This document shows positions 2,657-40,811 of a stretch of 64,000 nt of DNA, one piece after another (the first letter of the stretch is position 1; every line of letters starts with the position of its first letter). The notes below the pieces were generated by a model, which was not told where the DNA came from, did not search any database, and saw nothing but the letters and a program-made list of their open reading frames with translations. The position numbers and the translations under genes were made by a program. The stretch is from contig JAUPFP010000007.1 in NCBI GenBank assembly GCA_036925085.1, positions 687,501 through 751,500 on the forward strand, given 5' to 3'. The stretch is from Brachycybe producta. Taxonomy: Eukaryota; Arthropoda; Diplopoda; Playtdesmida; Andrognathidae.

Positions 2657-5600
2657 CTCGGACGATGTGAGATAACACAGGCGTGAGTCGGCACTCTCGA
2701 GTGAGGCCTGTTGTACGATACTGTGCTCGTGGTGATGATGATGATGTTGATGGGCGGCGGCGGCGGCCGCAGCGGCCAAACTAGCCGAACTGAAATGCAT
2801 GCCCGATTTGGAGTGGGTTAGGGGCAGGGTGCTCGATTTGCCCATCGGTGGACTGCCTGAGAAACACAAACACAGAACATTCACATTAGCAGCATACACA
2901 ACACTCATAAGATTAACAATAATCCGAACAAAATATATATTTGCCTATTTGGGGGGGGGGGGGGGACAAGAATTTTAATTTTGTTTTGTAAATTTTCAGA
3001 AATAAGAAAAGTTCTAAAAGGAATGAAGAACAATTCCGATGGTCTACTAACAGATAGTGGTTATTATTATATAATTAGTTAATTGCGTTGTTAATTACAG
3101 TGCCGAAGATAATCAACAGCCAATGAAACGATTGGTTAATTTAAGGTGGGATAAGTAAACAAACAAAAAACAACTTATATGTTAATTTCTCATTATGAAA
3201 ATTATTTCAAGTATTAATTGTAAAAAGGTGTTTCTTAATTAATTGAGGGTGAGATGGAAATATTTCGTTATTTGAGTGTGTGTGTGGGTGTGTTTTAGTG
3301 GGGGGGTTTAAGGGACTCACTTGATTGTGGTCTCATGGTCATCATCGGCTGTTGAAATCTTCGGTGTATCCGGTTGATCTCATTTAAGAAATCGAGTTTG
3401 GCCTCCCTACTACTCCTAGCGTTGGACCAATGTTCTGTTCCTTGTTCTTGGTCAACAACATGCACAGCTTCCGATACAATCGATTCTACATACATATATA
3501 TTAATATGTATAGTACGTATACGCACACACACTCACACATAGATTCTATACAAATCATAACAACAATAATAACAATAACAACAACAACAATAATTAGGTG
3601 GGTAGGGTGGTAATATTATGATTGAAAATCATTGTAAAATATTAAAATGCGGGTCGGCCACAAGAAAAGAGAGAGTCGGGAGACGCGGCAACTTATTATA
3701 AGACGTGTTTTAAGAAAAAAATTATCTATTTTTTAAAACACTTGTTATCTTAGGCTTGGAACACACAGACCACTTTTGGTCTGGTCAATTTCAACTGCAA
3801 AGTGAAGTCGGGTTGTCGCCAAAACCGACCACCACTTCGAATCTTTCTATAAAAAAAATATATTGAAACCACCTGTAACTTCATTTTGAAGTCGAAATCG
3901 ACCACTACGAGTGGTCTGTGTGCCAAGGCCCATAATCAAGGATTCAAGTGACCTTTTCACGTGAAATAGAAATAAATTTGTGAAATTGGCTACAATGAAT
4001 AACAGAATCGAATAGAAGGAATGAATTTTTTTTTTTTCATCATGAGGAGAAGGTTGGGTTTCAAATGGGGGTTTTTTTTTGGCAAGAGACAAGGATCCAG
4101 GTTCTTCTTTGACCTTTTTGTGATTTGTCTAGAAATAAGTCAAATAATGTCTTCTTCACCAGGCGGGGAGAGAGAGGACCCTTTTCATAAGTTATTATTA
4201 CAATGGGAGAATTGGTTTCTTTTTGTTTGTGCATTTCGTTGGCTTTTAAAAGTGATAAAATTAAAATGGAAAATCACCACAATACAAATCGATGATGGCT
4301 GTTGCTTACCTAGATTCTCCATGCTCTGAGTGAGAAGGGCCTCGAACGTATGCAGACTGTAGCTTTCGGCGTCCAGGCCCCTAGCAAGGGTGTTTCTCAG
4401 GTGCATTTCGTACTCCATGAGTAGACGGCTAGTCGGTGAGTTCGGTAGACCGGTAATGGGCAGACGATCGTCGTGACCGTAACCTCCACCCTCGCCGTTG
4501 CTTGAGCTTGGAGTGGTCGCATAACACTGATTATCGAAGAGAATGTTATCCGAAGGTGGCGACTGATCGTTATTCGGGAGATCCAGATACGTGCTCTGAT
4601 CGATGCTGCTACGGAAACTGTCCGAATGCGTGTAGGTGCTCTTGCGATCATAGTCCTGAGAACTGCTCCTTGATGACATGAGGAGACCTTGTTTGGAGGA
4701 CGATCTTCTGGAACGGCCACCGTGATCACGATGATGTTGGTGGTGTAGGAACGGGTGTATCATTCCTCCGTGATAAGACATGGCCCTCTCAGACGGAGAC
4801 TCATCGCCTGGAGATTCAGTCGACGTCATCGGTTGTAACATGCGCTTTAGAGCGTTGCTATCCAGACTCAGCGTTGAAATATCTCCTGACTGAGCGCCAC
4901 CCATTCCACCTCCTCCTCCTCCTCCACCACCGCCGCCACCTCCTCCTCCTGACCGACCACTTCCACCAGAACGTCCGGTTGCCGACATGGCCTGTTCGAA
5001 AACGTCGTCGGAACTCTTACTCTTGGTACGTCGATGACCTGGACCAGTACCAAACTTGGGAGGTGCCTCTCGGATGGACTCCATTTCACTGTAGTCAATG
5101 GATTTAGCAGCCTCTTTGCGAAAAAAAGCAGCACGACCTCGACCGTCTGACGCCGCCGTGCCGTGAGTGTTTCCATTTCCAACTCCGCCTCCTGTTCCCG
5201 TCTGATGCGTGACTCCGTCCATTGGAAACGATTTGATAGACCCATCACTTTTTGTCTGTTTGACGCCCATTTGATGGACGTTGCCATTGGCCTGAGCATT
5301 AGCTTGGTTGGAGGTTGCAAGTGGATTCACTCCTCGTCGAAGGGAATTCGCTACGTTGTCATAGACGGACGCACTGGACGGTGCCGTCGCGATCCGTTCG
5401 CGTTGGGTGGTGGGCATGCACGCGTCGTCCACACCTGTCCGTCCGCCCTGTTGTACTCTGGGTAGAGTCGATGCACCTACAAAATATAAAAGAGAAAACG
5501 GTTGTAATGCTAATGATTACGACGAAGACGATGTTTTACCTGTGATTCTTCCTCTGGCTTCTGCCCTCATACGTTGAAGGTTGTGTAGGTTTTCTCGGGT

Positions 5601-16926: not shown

Positions 16927-19900
16927 ATGGCCAACTTGAACCTAACCGTCGAAGAGTACGAGCTCTGGGCCGAGCCCAAGTATAGAACCTACGTTTCGGC
17001 AATAGACAAAGCCCTGAAAAACTTTGAGTCCACGAGCGAATGGGCCGATCTCATTTCCGCGCTAGTAAAACTGAACAAGGTTTTTCACTAATCGTCTCCT
17101 CAATCCCACTACCATTTGATGAAATGTTCGCCTGTTTTCTTTCGTAGGTGTTGACGGCGCACATCGACAGGCCGGTAATACCCCGCCGCATTGTTATCAG
17201 TAAGCGATTAGCACAGTGTATGCACCCTGCGCTGCCGGGTGGAGTCCACCTTAAAGCTCTGGAAACCTACGACATCATTTTTAGATGTATTGGAACGTCC
17301 CGTCTCGGCCGAGAACTCTTCATTTACAGTGCGGGTCAGAAACATCGATTCGAGTAGAGCGTCGATGATAGCCTCCAACGAAACTCCACTTATTTCCTCT
17401 GTTGTTCCACAGGTCTTTTTCCTCTGTTAGCCAATGCAGCAATGAACGTGCGTCCGGCATTATTAGCGATTTATGAATCTCACTTCGTTCCTTTGAAGGA
17501 GAAATTACGACCGGGTCTTCCCGGTTTCTTAAATGGCGTTCTTCCCGGTCTCGAAGAAGGATCCGAGTATTACGAGAGGTCGCGCTTTTGTCTTTCCCGT
17601 TTTGCTGCAGTCGTTTTATTGGTGCCGTTTTTCATACGCAGAACGAACGTGTTACTCGAGAAGGTTTCTTCCGGAGTTGCAATGGACTATTTCTACGGCT
17701 GTCTCTGGGAATGCATTTTGGCGAATGCAAGTGTCCGACTTCCAGCCGTCACGTTCGTCCTGAACCACTTCAACCGCCGGCTCAGTACGGAGGATCAGTT
17801 GCACATCATGGGCACCGATGTCGACATCATGGTGTGAAACGATTACATGATCGTTTGTTGTACGTTGTACGTTTTGTGCTGTTTTTATAGGTGCAAGCGT
17901 TGTCTTGGGCCGTCCTCGACAGCAGTGTTCTCGTGCAGAGGAGCACTTTAGACTTTCTACTGGTCGCGTTTCCATTCAACTCTGGACACCTCATTCGACA
18001 GGACATGGAAAGGATACTAACGTCGGCCGTGAATGTCGTTCTGCGTAGAGACATGTCTTTGAACAGGAGATTGTATTCATGGTTGCTCGGTGGAGAAGGT
18101 CAGAACGATGTGGGACCGAGAGGAGTCGGTGGCAGTGTGGCCAGCAGCGATTCCGAAGCATCGTCATGTTTCTTTGAAACGTACTCGAAGGACATTCTAG
18201 TTCAAGCTCTTTTTTCTTGTCTTAAGGTGTCGTTTGTAAATTTTATGCGTCAGTTATTTTTTTTTTGTATCTTCTTTTAAACTGATCTGATTCTGTATGT
18301 TTTAAGGGTGTGAGTCGTTGTTCGTCCGGAGATAACATTGCGCTCCACCTGAGGCCCTATCGGCTCCTCATTAGTCTTCTAGACAAACCAGAGATTGGCC
18401 AGGCTATATTGGATGACATTCTTCTAGATGTTTTTAGGTTTTTAGCGGCTTCTATCTTGAGTGGTCGGGGGATTTGGATTAAATCCAAGTTTAACTTCGC
18501 GTGTTTGCGTTTTGATTTTCGTTTTCTGTAGAGCTTTACATTACGAGTGTTTTGCGAATTCGACGGCGTCTTCCTTATCGTCGTGCCAGTCGAAAGACCG
18601 TGACCATCGTAGCGAGATCTTCAAAACGGCCAATCTTCTGTTCGGCACCCTAGAACCACATTACATCTGGGACTATCTCGGCGAATACTTTCGCAATACG
18701 TGTTCTGGACTAAAAATGGAAAGGAAATTGGACGTTGCTAAAGTGTTGCGTGTGGGATCCGGGAAGCCAACCGTTCTGGAACTGTGTCTACTCACGGAAT
18801 TCTTGCTCGATTTGGTTTCTGTGGTAACTTTATCTCTTCTTTGATCCGAATAAATCGTCTTTCGATTTTCAAAGTATCGTTTTAATTCTAGGAGACGTAT
18901 GTGGAACTGCAATTGGAACATCTTCCGAATCTTTTGCAAAACCTTTCAAAGACGTTGATGGCGACCTGCGAAAAATTGTCCACTTTGGAAATCACAAAAA
19001 CCCTTAGTCTTTGTTCGCTACTTTTGGGAAAGATTCAGTTGCCCATCGGTCCGGTTCCAACTACGAACCGCGGGTCGATTACTGGCAAATGTGTTGCAAA
19101 CGAACGTATTTCATCTCCGGAAGTGACAGATCATTTCGACTGTGATGCATTTGGCACAGAATCGATATCAGAGAGAGTGTCTTTTGTAAACGACAAAGAT
19201 GTGGGTGCCGACGTAGTTCACGATGACGAACCGTCTTCTAGGCCCGTCGCACTTCTGCGTTCCTGCATCAAAACCTTTCAGCGGTGTTTCGTTCGGTTGT
19301 CCGATGTGCTTTTATTCCAACAGGGGCACGATCACGAGAAGATTCTTCGAGATTTTCTTGTCTTTCGGCCAGACGAACGTAGCGAGAAACTGGAGCGACT
19401 CTTATGGAACTCGCTTCAAAGTGATTTTTGTGACAAATCGTCTTTTGAAAGGCTGCCTTCTAAAGTGACTCGTTGCGCTTCACCTGTCGTTCTCCTTCAT
19501 TCTAATGCTGCCAGTTACGTCGAAGGGTTTCGAATATCTTGTCAGATCCTCGTCGACTTCTCGTCTCTTCCCACCTGTATCGCTTCTGGTAGTCGTAGGC
19601 CGAAGGGATTTTCACATACTAACAGTAAATCTCTCGGTTTCCGTCTACATTTACTCCCAAAAATCTCATGTTGTATTTTCAAACTTTATGAATTAGATTT
19701 TGAGGATCCTTGCGTCATTCCAGAGTGGCTTCGCCCATTACTCATCATTGCTTGCTTCGTAAATCAAGTGGACTTGCAGTTGATTTCTATTGGTACTGTC
19801 CTGGAATTGATGGGATTATCGCAGTCGGCCGTTCGTCCCTCTCCGGTGGAGGCGTCTCGGCCAAGTGGCGGAACCTTTTCAGTCATCATTGATCCACTTC

Positions 19901-30519: not shown

Positions 30520-30962
30520 TCCCGTCAATTTCCACTTTATTCTTCAAGTTAAAAAATACTTCAAGTTCTACAGACTGAAAGGGAGACGGGAAAGGGGGGG
30601 GGGGGGGGGGGGAGGTAGCTCAGCCGCTCAGAGGAGTAAGGGAAGAATGTTAGGCCCAAATCCATGAAGAGGCACTTGAACCTAAGTATTCAACCCTCAG
30701 AAGAAAAAAGATTGCAACACAAAAAGGGCCCTATTTTTATCAAATACGAGTATCTAATAGGTTTTATTTTTGGAACCCTGTACAGAGAGTTTAAGTTTTA
30801 AGCAGCAAGTGTCGTTTTTTGAATTTGGGCCTCATATCGATACTTTTTGAAATTATCCTATTTGTTTGTGATCGATTTAAAATATACGGATCGATATTAC
30901 AAATGGCGGCGTTCATGAATTAAAATTATAATCTGTCAATTCGTTAATCAATTTTTTAAAAA
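30520..30962. promoter_or_regulatory. Shared divergent promoter region, DCAF6 / RNPC3
   Basis: The start codons of DCAF6 (minus) and RNPC3 (plus) are only 443 bp apart, so this interval must hold both promoters. It contains a G run of about 20 bases (30593-30612) and no convincing TATA box. Bidirectional promoters between housekeeping genes are common in compact animal genomes. The polarity is seen; promoter function is inferred. Confidence 0.55.
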
Positions 30963-33364
30963 ATGGATGCAAGAGAGTGTGTATTAATTATAAGACATTT
31001 TCCTTCCGAATTAACCATTGAAGATGCAACAGAGTTGCTGAGAAATTTCGGATCGATTAGGACAGTAAAACACAATCGAAAAGTGAGTCACTTATCAACT
31101 TTTTGCGTAATTTTCTTAAGATTTACCAACTAAACTGTTTTAATTATACTTCTGTTGTTTCCTTCAATATAGAATGTCGTCTATTCTACGTTTTCCTGCA
31201 AATCGGATGCCAAACTTGTTCGTAACACACAAAGAAAGCAAATCGCTATTTAATTACGCTTTATTTATTATTATTGTACTCTCTTAACATCGCTTTTGAT
31301 GTTATTTTAAAGGCGCTTTCTCGTCTGCATCAGCTTAAAATATTGAACAGAAGGCTCGTCGTAGAGTTTGCTGATGAATTTTCTAATGAATACTTTAACT
31401 CAAACGCGGACAATCCATCCTGGTAATGTGACTGACGACTTCTGTTGCAGCTAGCCCAACGATTGTTTGTTTGTTCACCTCGTTTAACAGGTCTATAGAT
31501 TCCGCAAAGAAAACTGCAGACGGAGAAGAAGCAACGAGTTCAAATACAAAGAGGAGCGACTTGCAGGAGAAGTTGCATGACTTTTCTCGTAACCTGAATG
31601 CTGTCGGAAAGGCTTTTGGGTGTGGTCCCAACCGACTCGGAAGCAAGAAGAAGTTGCGACTAACCTTTGTTTCTTTTTTTAGTTTGGATTTCCCGATGTC
31701 TGCCAAACTTTTTTATTCCTATCCTCGTCCGAGTGCGTCCACATTACATAACATCAACAACGCGCTAGTGGCCGTTCCAAAGTTCTACTTTCAGGTGCTG
31801 CATCTAATGAACAAGATGAACCTTCCAGCTCCGTTTGGTCCTGCTGTTGATTTTCCAGAGGTGTATCATCTCTTTTCGATTTACTTTTTTGTTTTCTTCT
31901 GCGAAAGTTAGGTTCTGTTTGTAATGTGTTACAGCTTCCATTGGCAGCCGAAGATGAAATGGCTGGATTTCTTGAAGAAGAAGAGTCTGAACTCGAGAGC
32001 GACGTTGACGATTCCACGAGGTGAACTTGAAAACAATTTTTTTTAAAATGGTTTAAATCTACAGAGCCGTCTTTTACAGGGCTTTAGAGAAAGCGTTATT
32101 CTTGGAAAAACGTCGCCGTCCAACCAAAAGAATGACTTCAAAGAGACCAAAATTACAACCGACTATTCAAAAGGATCCTGCAGAGTTCCAGCCTTCTAAG
32201 GATTTCATTCGGCCGACAGAAGTATTCGAAGTGCCCACCACCTTACATACAAAAAAGATAGAGTTCAAATTGGATGTTTCCCATCCCGCCAACACCGTGG
32301 ACACCAACGTCCCCGTTGGTGACGGTTCGTTCCCTTCGAGCTTACTCAATCTTGAATACAGTCTTCATTTATCGTTTTTTTTTATAGGATTTGGAACTTT
32401 CGAACCTGTCGAGAACTTAGAAAGTGGTAGCGAGACCCCGGTTGAAACGGCATCTGTATCTTCTTTCATCGAAATCAAATTTGCGAGCGAAGAAGAATTG
32501 GCGCGCAATCGGATTTCACGTGAAGGTATTTGTTTCTAGTGTTATATCATCTCGTACAGCGTTATTTCGTTTTTCTTTGCATCTTTCTCTTTCACGAAAC
32601 ATTCCAGAGCTGGAAATGCTTCCCGTTTTTAAGAATTATGAACCTGGCAAACCGACGAGAAGACTGTATCTTAAAAACCTAGCAAAACAAGTGGTGGAAG
32701 AAGATCTGAGCTTCATTTACAGACGATACGTTGATGATAACGACGAAAAATCTACGTAACAATTCAAATGTGTTTATCATTACACATCTTTTAGAGCCTG
32801 ATTAAAAGTTTTTTTTTTTGCGGTCTATAGGTTTGATATCCGCCTTATGAAAGAAGGTCGAATGAAAGGTCAAGCGTTCGTCACCTTAAAAGATGAAGAT
32901 TGTGCTCTGAAAGCTCTCCAACAAACGAACGGTTACGTTCTTCACGGAAAACCCATAGTAGTCGTATCCTTTATTTAAAAACGAGTTTTAATCTTCTGGA
33001 ATTGCGTTGAGATGGGTTATGGAATGGGTGATATTCGAACTCTTGGTTATTTTGCGTTTTAAGAGCAACACTAATATGAAATTAATTAGAAACGAAAACG
33101 GTAGTTGGATCACTTTACAGTATTTTTATGTTATGTTAAAAAAATACTGTCTCCTTAAAGTTAGGGTCATTTTTAAACTGACATAAAACCTAATTTTTTC
33201 GTGAGTGAAAGCTACCGTTCCAGTTTCTAAAACGTCTCTGTTTTAAATTTTGCTCCTGAAATATATAATAATCAGAGTTACGGGTTTTGAGTTACACTTT
33301 TAAAACACCTTAATTCATTTGTTTTTTTAAACAGCAATTTGCAAAATGCAACAAGAGCGATTAA
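30963..33364 (+). CDS. RNPC3: RNPC3: U11/U12 di-snRNP 65K protein, two RRMs
   Basis: The protein is 453 residues; human is 517. Exons: 30963-31082, 31173-31217, 31313-31422, 31491-31619, 31683-31860, 31935-32020, 32080-32324, 32388-32525, 32608-32755, 32831-32963, 33335-33364. RRM1 (about residues 5-80) has RNP2-like VLIIRHFP and VVYSTFSCKSDAKLALS. The middle reads LVAVPKFYFQVLHLMNKMNL, a strong 65K signature, followed by EEEESELESD. RRM2 has RRLYLKNLA and the RNP1-like KGQAFVTL, with the last strand PIVV-QFAKCNKSD split by the final intron. In the family, RRM2 binds U12 snRNA and the N-terminal part binds U11-59K, bridging the two snRNPs during minor-intron recognition. The final intron begins GTATCCTTT, a U12-type donor; see the separate entry. 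Intron 4 is 63 nt and open in frame. Confidence 0.94.
32964..33334 (+). promoter_or_regulatory. U12-type (minor spliceosome) final intron of RNPC3
   Basis: The intron starts GTATCCTTT (32964-32972), identical to the GT-AG class U12 5' splice-site consensus. It ends TTTTTTTAAACAG with ACCTTAATTC (branch A near 33312-33313) about 21 nt before the AG, close to the U12 branch-point consensus TTCCTTAAY. Splicing here is supported by the product: VV-QFAKCNKSD completes the RRM2 last strand. If unspliced, translation stops after four intron codons at 32976-32978. The intron is the longest of the gene and contains a foldback element at 33038-33279. Confidence 0.8.
33038..33279. mobile_element. Foldback MITE inside the RNPC3 U12-type intron
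   Basis: The left arm AACTCTTGGTTATTTTG...TAGAAACGAAAACGGTAG and the right arm CTACCGTTCCAGTTTCTA...AATAATCAGAGTT are inverted copies over roughly 65 bp. The same terminal motif (ACTCTTGATTATT with TTCAGGAGCAAA) occurs at both ends of the element at 45762-45934, so both belong to one family. Confidence 0.65.
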
Positions 33365-33797
33365 ATAATACGTAAGAAAAGTTTTTTGCGGTTTGAAAAA
33401 AAAAATGCTTTTAATAATATTAATTAACGATGAGAACGAAGATGTAGACACACACAAACAAACGGACAAACACACATAGAAAGTGAAAAAAACGTCAATA
33501 TAATAATAATGACTTAAGACAACAAACACTCCTCCAAGAAACAAACACACATTTGTTTTTGTGCCCTCTTTTTTCTTTTTCCTCTTAAAATGGAACTATT
33601 TTACAAGAGCGAACGAACGAGCGCAACTGGGTGGGGAGATAACGGAGTTTTAAGAGAGAGAGAGACGGAGGACTCCTCCTCCTCCTAGTATTCGAATATT
33701 TTCGTTAACGGCCTTCATCGTCTCCTCCTCATGGAATATAAATGACCAGATCACAACGACAAGGACGATCATGAAACTATTCCTAATTTTTTTTAAA
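33365..33797. other. Short convergent interval between RNPC3 and TBPL1
   Basis: These 433 bp separate the stop codons of RNPC3 (plus) and the TBP-like gene (minus). They must hold both 3' untranslated regions, which may overlap. The sequence is AT-rich with CACACA and TCCTCC runs. No other gene is seen. Confidence 0.6.
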
Positions 33798-34919
33798 TTA
33801 TTCCAAGCTGTTATCGCTATCAGTGTCGTCATCATCCTCATCACACATGATGCGGCGACGCTTTTGGTCGTTCTTTGCCACCACCTCCTTTCGACTATTG
33901 AGCTTCTCTTTGCGGTGCATTGCTTCCTCGCACCTCTTGGAACGTTCTTTGCGGTACTCGTAAACGATGGGAAAGATGTGTTCGATGGCGGACTGTACAT
34001 TCAGCACTGATGGAGCTTTAACGAAAACAACAACAAAAAGAGTTAAGAGCGAGTTCCACCGATCCACCTACCACTATCCTACCGGTCACTGTTATGCTTC
34101 CCGTTGAAAAGATCTTCATAGTTGCTTTTGGTTCCTTTATCTTGTACGTCACTCCAGGATGCAGTTCCGGTTCGTAACTGATTAAACGATATACATCGAT
34201 TGAGCGATACGGCATCACACATACAAACACAACGTCTTCATAACAAAAAACCTGGCATTCGATCTGTGATCCCTCGAGAAGTTGATGATGTTGATGGCGA
34301 ACGGCATCGAGCACGTGCCCAACACGTTCACGACACGATAATTACTGAAACGAGTCTTGAATCCGAACTTCTGCAGGAGACGGGCGAAACGACGTGCAGC
34401 CACTTTTGCCAGGTCTTCACTGATTTCAACGACAAAAAAATACCAAAGTTAGAAGACGTGAACCTTGAAGAAAAAGGAAAGATCGCATTAAAAAACGAAC
34501 CTAGTGGCTCCGGTGCAAGTGATCTTTCCGGACGACCACAGACTGGCCGTCGCATTCGGCTTTCGTAATTTCATTGTGACCATCTATATAATAACGATAA
34601 TAAAGAAGAAGTTTATCGTCGTCTGTTTTGTCGCCTTTCGTATTCAGATTGTTACCCCGTTCTCTCTTCGATACTCAACGTTGATTGCATTCAATGCAAT
34701 CTTCCTGAGATCCAAGTGGCATCGAACATTGAAGCTACACACAACATTGTTGATGATGATGTCCAGAGTTAACTGTGGTTCTGCCGATTCCCCTTGACCG
34801 TTCAATGTGTCGTTGTCTTCGGTACCTGAATGGTTGTTCGTAGTCGTGCGATGGAGGACGTGGTGTCCGTCTCCAGTCGCCGACTCTGTAAGTCTGTGAT
34901 CTTCTGTAATCGCAGCCAT
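33798..34919 (-). CDS. TBPL1: TBP-like protein 1 / TBP-related factor 2
   Basis: The protein is 275 residues. Exons on the minus strand: 34656-34919, 34501-34583, 34252-34419, 34083-34177, 33798-34015. The core fold holds both TBP repeats in the TRF2 form: LDIIINNVVCSFNVRCHLDL, MKLRKPNATASLWSSGKITC, ARRFARLLQKFGF, VVNVLGTCSMPFAI, SYEPELHPGVTYKI and FSTGSITVTG. In ordinary TBP, phenylalanines intercalate into TATA DNA; the TRF2 family has lost TATA binding and directs TATA-less promoters with TFIIA and TFIIB. Compared with vertebrate TBPL1 (about 186 residues) there is an N-terminal extension of about 50 residues and a basic then acidic tail ending DEDDDDTDSDNSLE. The gene converges on RNPC3. 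Identity is confident; the in-frame ATG at 34919 is the first usable start. Confidence 0.94.
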
Positions 34920-40173: not shown

Positions 40174-40811
40174 AATTAAGTTAGTACGAATCTTATACGA
40201 TAGATGGCAGTCGAGTGACACCTTCTTTTTTCGTTGTCCATTCGTAGGATCGATCTATCCCATTTGTAATCGATATGATTTCGGATGCTGGATGCTGCGT
40301 TTTTTTTTCCTTTCTATTTTGATGTATGGAGGTCGAATCGGGGGGGGGGGGGGGGGGGGGTTAAATGTGGCTAACGTATTTGTGAATAAGACGGATTCAC
40401 AATTGGAAAGAAAATAATACTAATGTCAATATTAAACATCAATATTAGAATTTATTTTAAAAAATAAGTGTGTGGTTATTTGTTGGGTTTTGGGAAGAAA
40501 GATAGCGGGTCTTTTTTATTAGCTTACTGAGAGCGTTGAGTGAGAGTGAGTGAGTGTGGGAGAACGTCCCAAACTCCCCCTGACTGTCATCGACCTGTGT
40601 GTGTGTGCACTTGAATGGAGGTCGATCGATACATTTCTACTGTGTATGTGTGTACATTATGTGATAAGAGCAGGAAAAGAGAGAGAGAATGGCGAAGTCA
40701 CATGTGCGCATGTGTGTTTGTAGATGGCGGCAAGTTGTTCATCCAGAGCCTCATTGTCCCCTCCTCCTCCTCCTCTCTCTCATTCTCTCTATCTTGCTTC
40801 TTCCCATTGAT

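Follow-up and report, generated by a model that had tools for sequence, protein, structure and literature searches.

A related, described system is the USSE of vertebrates. According to the account in PMC5473595, U11 sitting on this tandem 5'ss element favours a nuclear and unproductive 65K mRNA, which amounts to a negative feedback. PMC3584512 describes the USSE as occurring in plants and animals and as absent in Diptera. The 65K gene itself, RNPC3, is named both as a minor-intron-containing gene and as a component of the minor spliceosome (PMC6865273, citing Olthof 2019). The same source gives 648 of 20,444 human genes (3.2%) as containing a minor intron, RNPC3 among them, so that the base rate of such genes is not tiny. 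In human 65K, R502X, which lies directly after QFA, deletes 15 residues and is described as deleterious (PMC3958305).

Here we analysed the last intron of a 65K gene in a 64,000-nt stretch of DNA from Brachycybe producta, which as a whole is called the window. That RNPC3 can hold a minor intron is already known; the new part is the position of the predicted branch site, which falls on the terminus of a repeat with many dispersed copies.

The 65K gene and its last intron

The gene was modelled by hand and its last intron was delimited by donor, branch site and protein frame. The features are as follows.

30963..33364, plus strand: U11/U12-65K (RNPC3) coding span, hand-made model with 11 exons, 453 aa
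32831..32963, plus strand: exon 10, encoding RRM2 as far as ...GKPIVV (gene model and RRM2 alignment)
32964..33334, plus strand: intron 10, predicted U12-type GT-AG intron in phase 0 between VV and QFA, 371 nt
32964..32974, plus strand: donor GTATCCTTTAT, able to pair at 11 of 11 positions (G-U counted) with the genome's U11 5' end
32976-32978, plus strand: TAA, the stop reached if intron 10 is retained (VSFI*; gene model)
33007..33313, plus strand: foldback repeat copy with TTAA-type ends (TTGA 33007-33010, body 33011-33309, TTAA 33310-33313)
33306..33314, plus strand: predicted U12 branch site CACCTTAAT, 10.0 bits, U12 duplex -6.9 kcal/mol
33335..33364, plus strand: last coding exon QFAKCNKSD*, which gives back the VVQFA of human 65K RRM2

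Both RRMs of the window protein, N-terminal and C-terminal, match RRM_1. The C-terminal one finds its best match in RNA-binding protein 40 (RNPC3, 65K; 1.3e-35), followed by the weaker matches FLJ11016 (4.9e-21) and RBM41 (8.5e-21). Its alignment with human RNPC3 runs over the last junction (...HGKPIVV/QFAKC), and with the 65K RRM2 as protein query the genome (295 Mb, 442 contigs, all searched) gave the window gene as the sole match at E<=0.001. RBM41 is described as having one RRM (PMC11039992). Two RRMs, the second nearest to 65K and with RBM41 scoring lower, point to 30963-33364 as the U11/U12-65K gene, the identity already given in the initial annotation.

In the model, the normal stop is TAA at 33362-33364, and introns 1-9 measure 59-95 nt each, compared with 371 nt for intron 10. 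The exon edges at 31218 and 32325 were set by protein fit alone; the introns there seem to open with GTTCGT, a poor U2 donor. At the end of the gene (33360-33372) an ATTAAA overlaps the stop codon, with GTAAGA further on at 33372, and if this ATTAAA is the poly(A) signal of the 65K gene, the last exon would be very short. No AATAAA occurs on the plus strand of 30800-34100. Long G runs are seen in the window at about 30596-30613 and 40340-40360.

The donor word of intron 10, GTATCCTTT, agrees with the U12 consensus at 9 of 9 positions. Extended to 11 nt, the donor pairs throughout with the 5' end of the genome's own U11 (AUAAAGGGUAU), and in the same register all nine other 65K donors show breaks. 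With first-pass matrices built on the general U12 consensus, intron 10 reached a donor score of +15.7 bits, the nine other 65K donors -2.0 to -21.3 bits, and 2 of 7382 GT sites on both strands of the window came within 3 bits of the best. The other of these two sites, a second GTATCCTTT at 18009-18017 (minus strand), was judged probably fortuitous as a donor, being without an evident frame to use it; the best branch-like word for this donor at 18017 scored 6.2 bits and lay 516 nt on (1.3 kb scanned), compared with 6.7 bits for intron 10 on the same first-pass matrix. Genome-wide the donor word was found at 852+866 places, and its reversed form at 1397+1321 places. The word is hence rarer than its control, and the donor alone is no evidence. 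It is also seen in tandem arrays with steps of 27-29 nt (C1:5951556-5951760 and C1:11292735-11292857).

The last A of CACCTTAAT is located 21 nt upstream of the final G of the intron. The word shares 6 of 9 letters with the U12 branch-site consensus TTCCTTAAC, including the whole CCTTAA core, and the next best branch word in the zone -55..-5 scored -0.4 bits versus 10.0. A branch score at least equal to that of intron 10 precedes 80 of the 7163 AG sites of the window (first-pass matrix), and under a Markov null built from intron 10 the branch site, taken by itself, has P=0.023. Splicing across 32963/33335 would restore the frame of human 65K, in line with the initial annotation, which had placed the intron between VV and QFA of RRM2. 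Phase 0 accounts on average for 22% of minor introns (PMC10639083), so the phase of intron 10 is unremarkable.

The genome has one match each for U11 (79.4 bits) and U12 snRNA (119.8 bits), both above the Rfam cut-off, which indicates that a minor spliceosome is probably present. A genome-wide pattern for short GT-AG introns, combining a U12 donor with a CCTTRAY core, matched at 39 places, compared with 31 for the reversed pattern; the pattern is thus not specific and proves little alone. We examined 30 of the 39 places as loci, which reduced to 25 distinct ones, and selected, by eye, 10 whose junctions looked protein-like. A Pfam domain spans the junction in 8 of them: the hosts are an EML HELP motif gene, Smg8_Smg9, a mitochondrial carrier, TCP-1, zf-C3Hc3H, eIF2A and two kinases resembling ERK and JNK, the JNK-like one under the gathering score. 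The two other candidates, read as PSMA1 and TMEM41, gave no Pfam match and were set aside.

Measured against a profile of these eight controls, intron 10 scored 15.2 bits for the donor (leave-one-out range 6.2-16.5) and 10.6 bits for the branch site (7.0-11.4). Both values lie inside the ranges of the same genome. Since the controls were found with the core motifs fixed by the pattern, this profile compares the other positions and the distances more than the core. The branch-to-AG distance is 13-23 nt in the eight controls and 21 in intron 10, and the duplex with U12 snRNA has -4.8 to -9.3 kcal/mol in 5 of the 8 controls and -6.9 for CACCTTAAT. From these data intron 10 would be a genuine U12-type GT-AG intron, as far as can be judged from sequence, and the U12 class assigned to the last intron of RNPC3 by the initial annotation is borne out by the 9/9 donor, the 11/11 U11 pairing and the position of CACCTTAAT.

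U11-48K was not found in the genome; the single CHHC match there was rejected as 48K, as the gene has two fingers and seems GTSF1-like. CENATAC was found in pieces, and no [AG]TATCCTT occurs on its strand in the 6.7 kb around its matches. The genome search with RRM2 of 65K mentioned above matched the window gene only and gave no RBM41, which could escape such a search if it were split into short exons. In one further locus (L012) we saw ATATCCTTT at 4032 and TTTCCTTAATT...AG at 4498, about 466 nt apart, a possible AT-type minor intron; this ATATCCTTT directly follows what we take to be an acireductone-dioxygenase-like frame, with the presumed GTSF1-like gene nearby. The mitochondrial contig (15,359 bases) carries a COX1 with in-frame TGA and with four AGA codons at positions that would suit Ser, judged against typical COX1 sequences. 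Many protostomes use this code, which is consistent with an arthropod but no proof of one. COX1-like stretches in large contigs, at C1:12697416-12698753 and C17:4027703-4029047 are probably nuclear copies of mitochondrial DNA.

A dispersed foldback repeat at the predicted branch site

About 300 nt of intron 10 are a copy of a dispersed foldback repeat. Intron positions 42-370 have at least 42 other matches in the genome, on both strands and with 69-80% identity, a lower bound because the best candidates alone were scored. Identity averages about 75%, which makes a recent insertion improbable. The predicted fold of the repeat is one long stem with imperfect pairing (z -3.86, 100 shuffles).

The 42 matches are covered by 39 regions, in which 70 inverted ends were mapped, two of them inside intron 10; 67 ends outside intron 10 had sufficient flank for alignment. 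In the aligned boundary column, exact TTAA is present in 23 of 65 ends and 3-4 letters are right in 35 of 65. The remaining columns 6-22 have exact TTAA in 0-6 rows, with the 6 in the adjacent column, and the bases beyond the boundary are mixed. Among 29 two-ended copies, exact TTAA is found at both ends in 4 (two of them the near-duplicates L048 and L049), at one end in 13 and at neither end in 12. The repeat therefore qualifies as a TTAA-type foldback element: it has many copies, its ends are inverted, and TTAA marks the boundary. It may belong to the piggyBac-like MITEs, foldback elements with TTAA as the target.

One type of end carries an inner TTTTAAA. For one end type the 3' side consensus, taken from 21 word-picked termini with the intron copy excluded, is ...CACTTTAAAACCAcCTTAA, where the lower-case c stands for 40-55%. 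The matching end in intron 10 is ...CACTTTTAAAACACCTTAA, and it coincides with the predicted branch site; the CC of the branch site would belong to the element end, in the stretch CACCTTAA. Exact TTAA is followed by GA in 13 of 23 ends (TCTTAA) and by GG in 5 of 23 (CCTTAA; two of these are near-duplicates), so that within the family only a minority of ends have the CCTTAA core. On its left side the intron copy is bounded by TTGA and not TTAA. The U12 donor word is present in 3 of the 39 repeat regions.

When the insert is removed and the flanks are joined, intron 10 shrinks to 68 nt, the size of the neighbouring introns. The best branch word is then TGCGTTAAT, again 21 nt from the AG, with 6.7 bits versus 10.0 bits now and with a U12 snRNA pairing of -3.1 kcal/mol versus -6.9 for the present site; TGCGTTAAT is made of present-day flank, which has drifted since the insertion and may differ from the ancestral branch site. 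The 68-nt length, together with the weaker word and the weaker pairing, makes it likely that the element inserted at the branch-site TTAA and that its end supplied the CC. The predicted branch site CACCTTAAT, as CACC plus TTAA, appears to lie on the terminus of an old mobile element. In the order of events that we propose, an intron of about 68 nt would have received a TTAA-type foldback element in the TTAA of its branch site, the element end ...CACC beside TTAA would have yielded a CCTTAA branch core, and splicing would have survived. That the element in this way rebuilt the site (CACC/TTAA), so that 65K production is tied to a branch point made by an element, is a proposal to which we give a chance slightly short of even.

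We also asked how accessible such a site is. In the ensemble (60-nt flanks) the branch-site CC is paired at 0.94 in the 65K intron and at 0.78 or more in 7 of the 8 controls; occlusion of the branch site by the foldback stem was rejected, since most controls are paired too. The U12 consensus TTCCTTAAC contains a TTAA. This, together with family ends of the form CCTTAA or TCTTAA, means that such elements could enter the branch sites of minor introns and leave the intron alive, and they could also bring U12-like branch sites to new places. Among the entries listed in a literature search, titles and abstract openings gave no report of U12 branch points made by mobile elements, which does not prove that none exists.

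Possible retention of intron 10 and its proposed role in the control of 65K

If intron 10 is retained, reading ends with ...GKPIVVVSFI* and gives 448 aa compared with 453 aa for the spliced form. The initial annotation had expected a stop at 32976 and the loss of the final strand. The stop is indeed there; the strand, on the other hand, would not simply be lost, as VV-QFA turns into VV-VSFI. In the model no exon junction follows 3' of intron 10, so EJC-type decay would not be expected, which holds for the hand-made model, as a 3'UTR intron is possible, for example from GTAAGA at 33372. We infer that retained 65K RNA is likelier to be held up in the nucleus than to undergo EJC-type decay.

An intron that responds to the level of U11/U12 could act as a sensor, as was proposed initially by analogy to vertebrates; the data give no support to a role akin to the vertebrate one, whose sign would moreover be reversed here. 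Low U11/U12 would give less spliced 65K and, with that, still lower U11/U12, so the loop would be self-reinforcing and would not hold the level steady. Such a loop could do harm, have no effect or serve as a switch. A regulated sensor, in which intron 10 stays in the RNA at low U11/U12 activity and either this RNA or the protein ending in VSFI acts back on the minor spliceosome, would accordingly not be homeostatic, and we regard it as unlikely. It can draw on human R502X, as the loss of the last 15 residues after QFA was described, together with P474T, to impair di-snRNP formation (PMC3958305), and on activity-dependent minor-intron switches, existing or proposed, in SRSF10 (PMC7244321), CENATAC (PMC8329584) and dUrp (PMC3584512). 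However, the spliced window protein ends 6 residues beyond QFA, so most of the human tail is missing anyway, and minor introns are frequent enough for chance. Around intron 10, a scan for GTAAG and GTGAG words found them just at 33201 (the nearest to the U12 donor) and at 33372, and an exact tandem of TATCCTT is absent from the plus strand of 30800-34100, which holds one exact copy. Words with one mismatch to TATCCTT lie close together on this strand at 31145/31158 and 34075/34093; the latter pair (34075-34099, 18 nt apart) is within a neighbouring minus-strand gene.

The same donor could instead be a single-copy, USSE-like landing site for U11 that governs, as in vertebrates, the upstream 3'ss of intron 9, and exon 10 (133 nt) does sit between a U2-like 3'ss and the U12 5'ss. 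The USSE is described as a tandem repeat that is itself unspliced (PMC5473595), whereas here we find a single exact site and a protein frame that suggests splicing of the intron 10 donor; we give this account hardly any credence. That the major spliceosome removes intron 10, alone or together with the minor one, is scarcely more credible. The T-rich tract ahead of the AG would suit U2AF too, but GTC/GTATCC looks like a poor U1 target (judged by eye on the U2 consensus), the U11 pairing is complete and the remaining 65K introns look different. It is also quite improbable that VSFI* is a normal or equal C-terminus, with intron 10 often kept and the 9-residue and 4-residue ends both serving as working isoforms. 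VV-VSFI retains a hydrophobic, strand-like end and the two lengths are close (448 versus 453 aa); RRM2 of human 65K, however, matches QFA, and PMC3584512 and PMC5473595 describe RNAs with an unspliced U12-type intron as presumably retained in the nucleus.

The observed signals, the U11 and U12 genes, the repeat family and the position of its end lead us to a joint reading that we consider probable: intron 10 would be U12-type, 65K would depend on it passively, and an element would have inserted into the TTAA of its branch site. Full-length 65K would then need working U11/U12, because intron 10 would be removed by the minor spliceosome. In its simplest form this reading sees a dependence that is carried along passively and reinforces itself weakly, rather than a homeostatic sensor.

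Comparison with known systems

Should the branch point indeed lie on an element end, the 65K gene would be a tangible example of a minor-spliceosome signal provided, or re-established, by a mobile element, and, if true, a testable route for the survival or the origin of minor introns. Moreover, a 65K output tied to minor splicing in a self-reinforcing way would be the reverse of the vertebrate feedback.

Intron 10 resembles U12-type GT-AG introns in its donor, CCTTAA core, short branch-to-AG distance, the presence of U11 and U12 genes and the restored frame. It differs from ordinary ones in that its predicted branch site coincides with the terminus of a dispersed repeat. The repeat shares with piggyBac-like MITEs, as we call this class, the inverted ends, the TTAA peak at the boundary and the many dispersed copies; a point of difference is that exact TTAA is seen at both aligned ends in only 4 of 29 two-ended copies. 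Human RNPC3 holds a minor intron as the window gene would, a likeness at the level of the gene. SRSF10, CENATAC and dUrp are, like the 65K gene, splicing-factor genes in which the output hinges, or may hinge, on a minor intron. Those genes have competing U2 sites or unproductive outcomes, of which none was found at the 65K intron at the level of GTAAG and GTGAG. Finally, as in the 48K and 65K genes with a USSE, a U12 5'ss-like sequence lies near the 3' end of the gene. Unlike the USSE, it is present here as a single exact copy, is apparently spliced and would belong to a loop of opposite sign.
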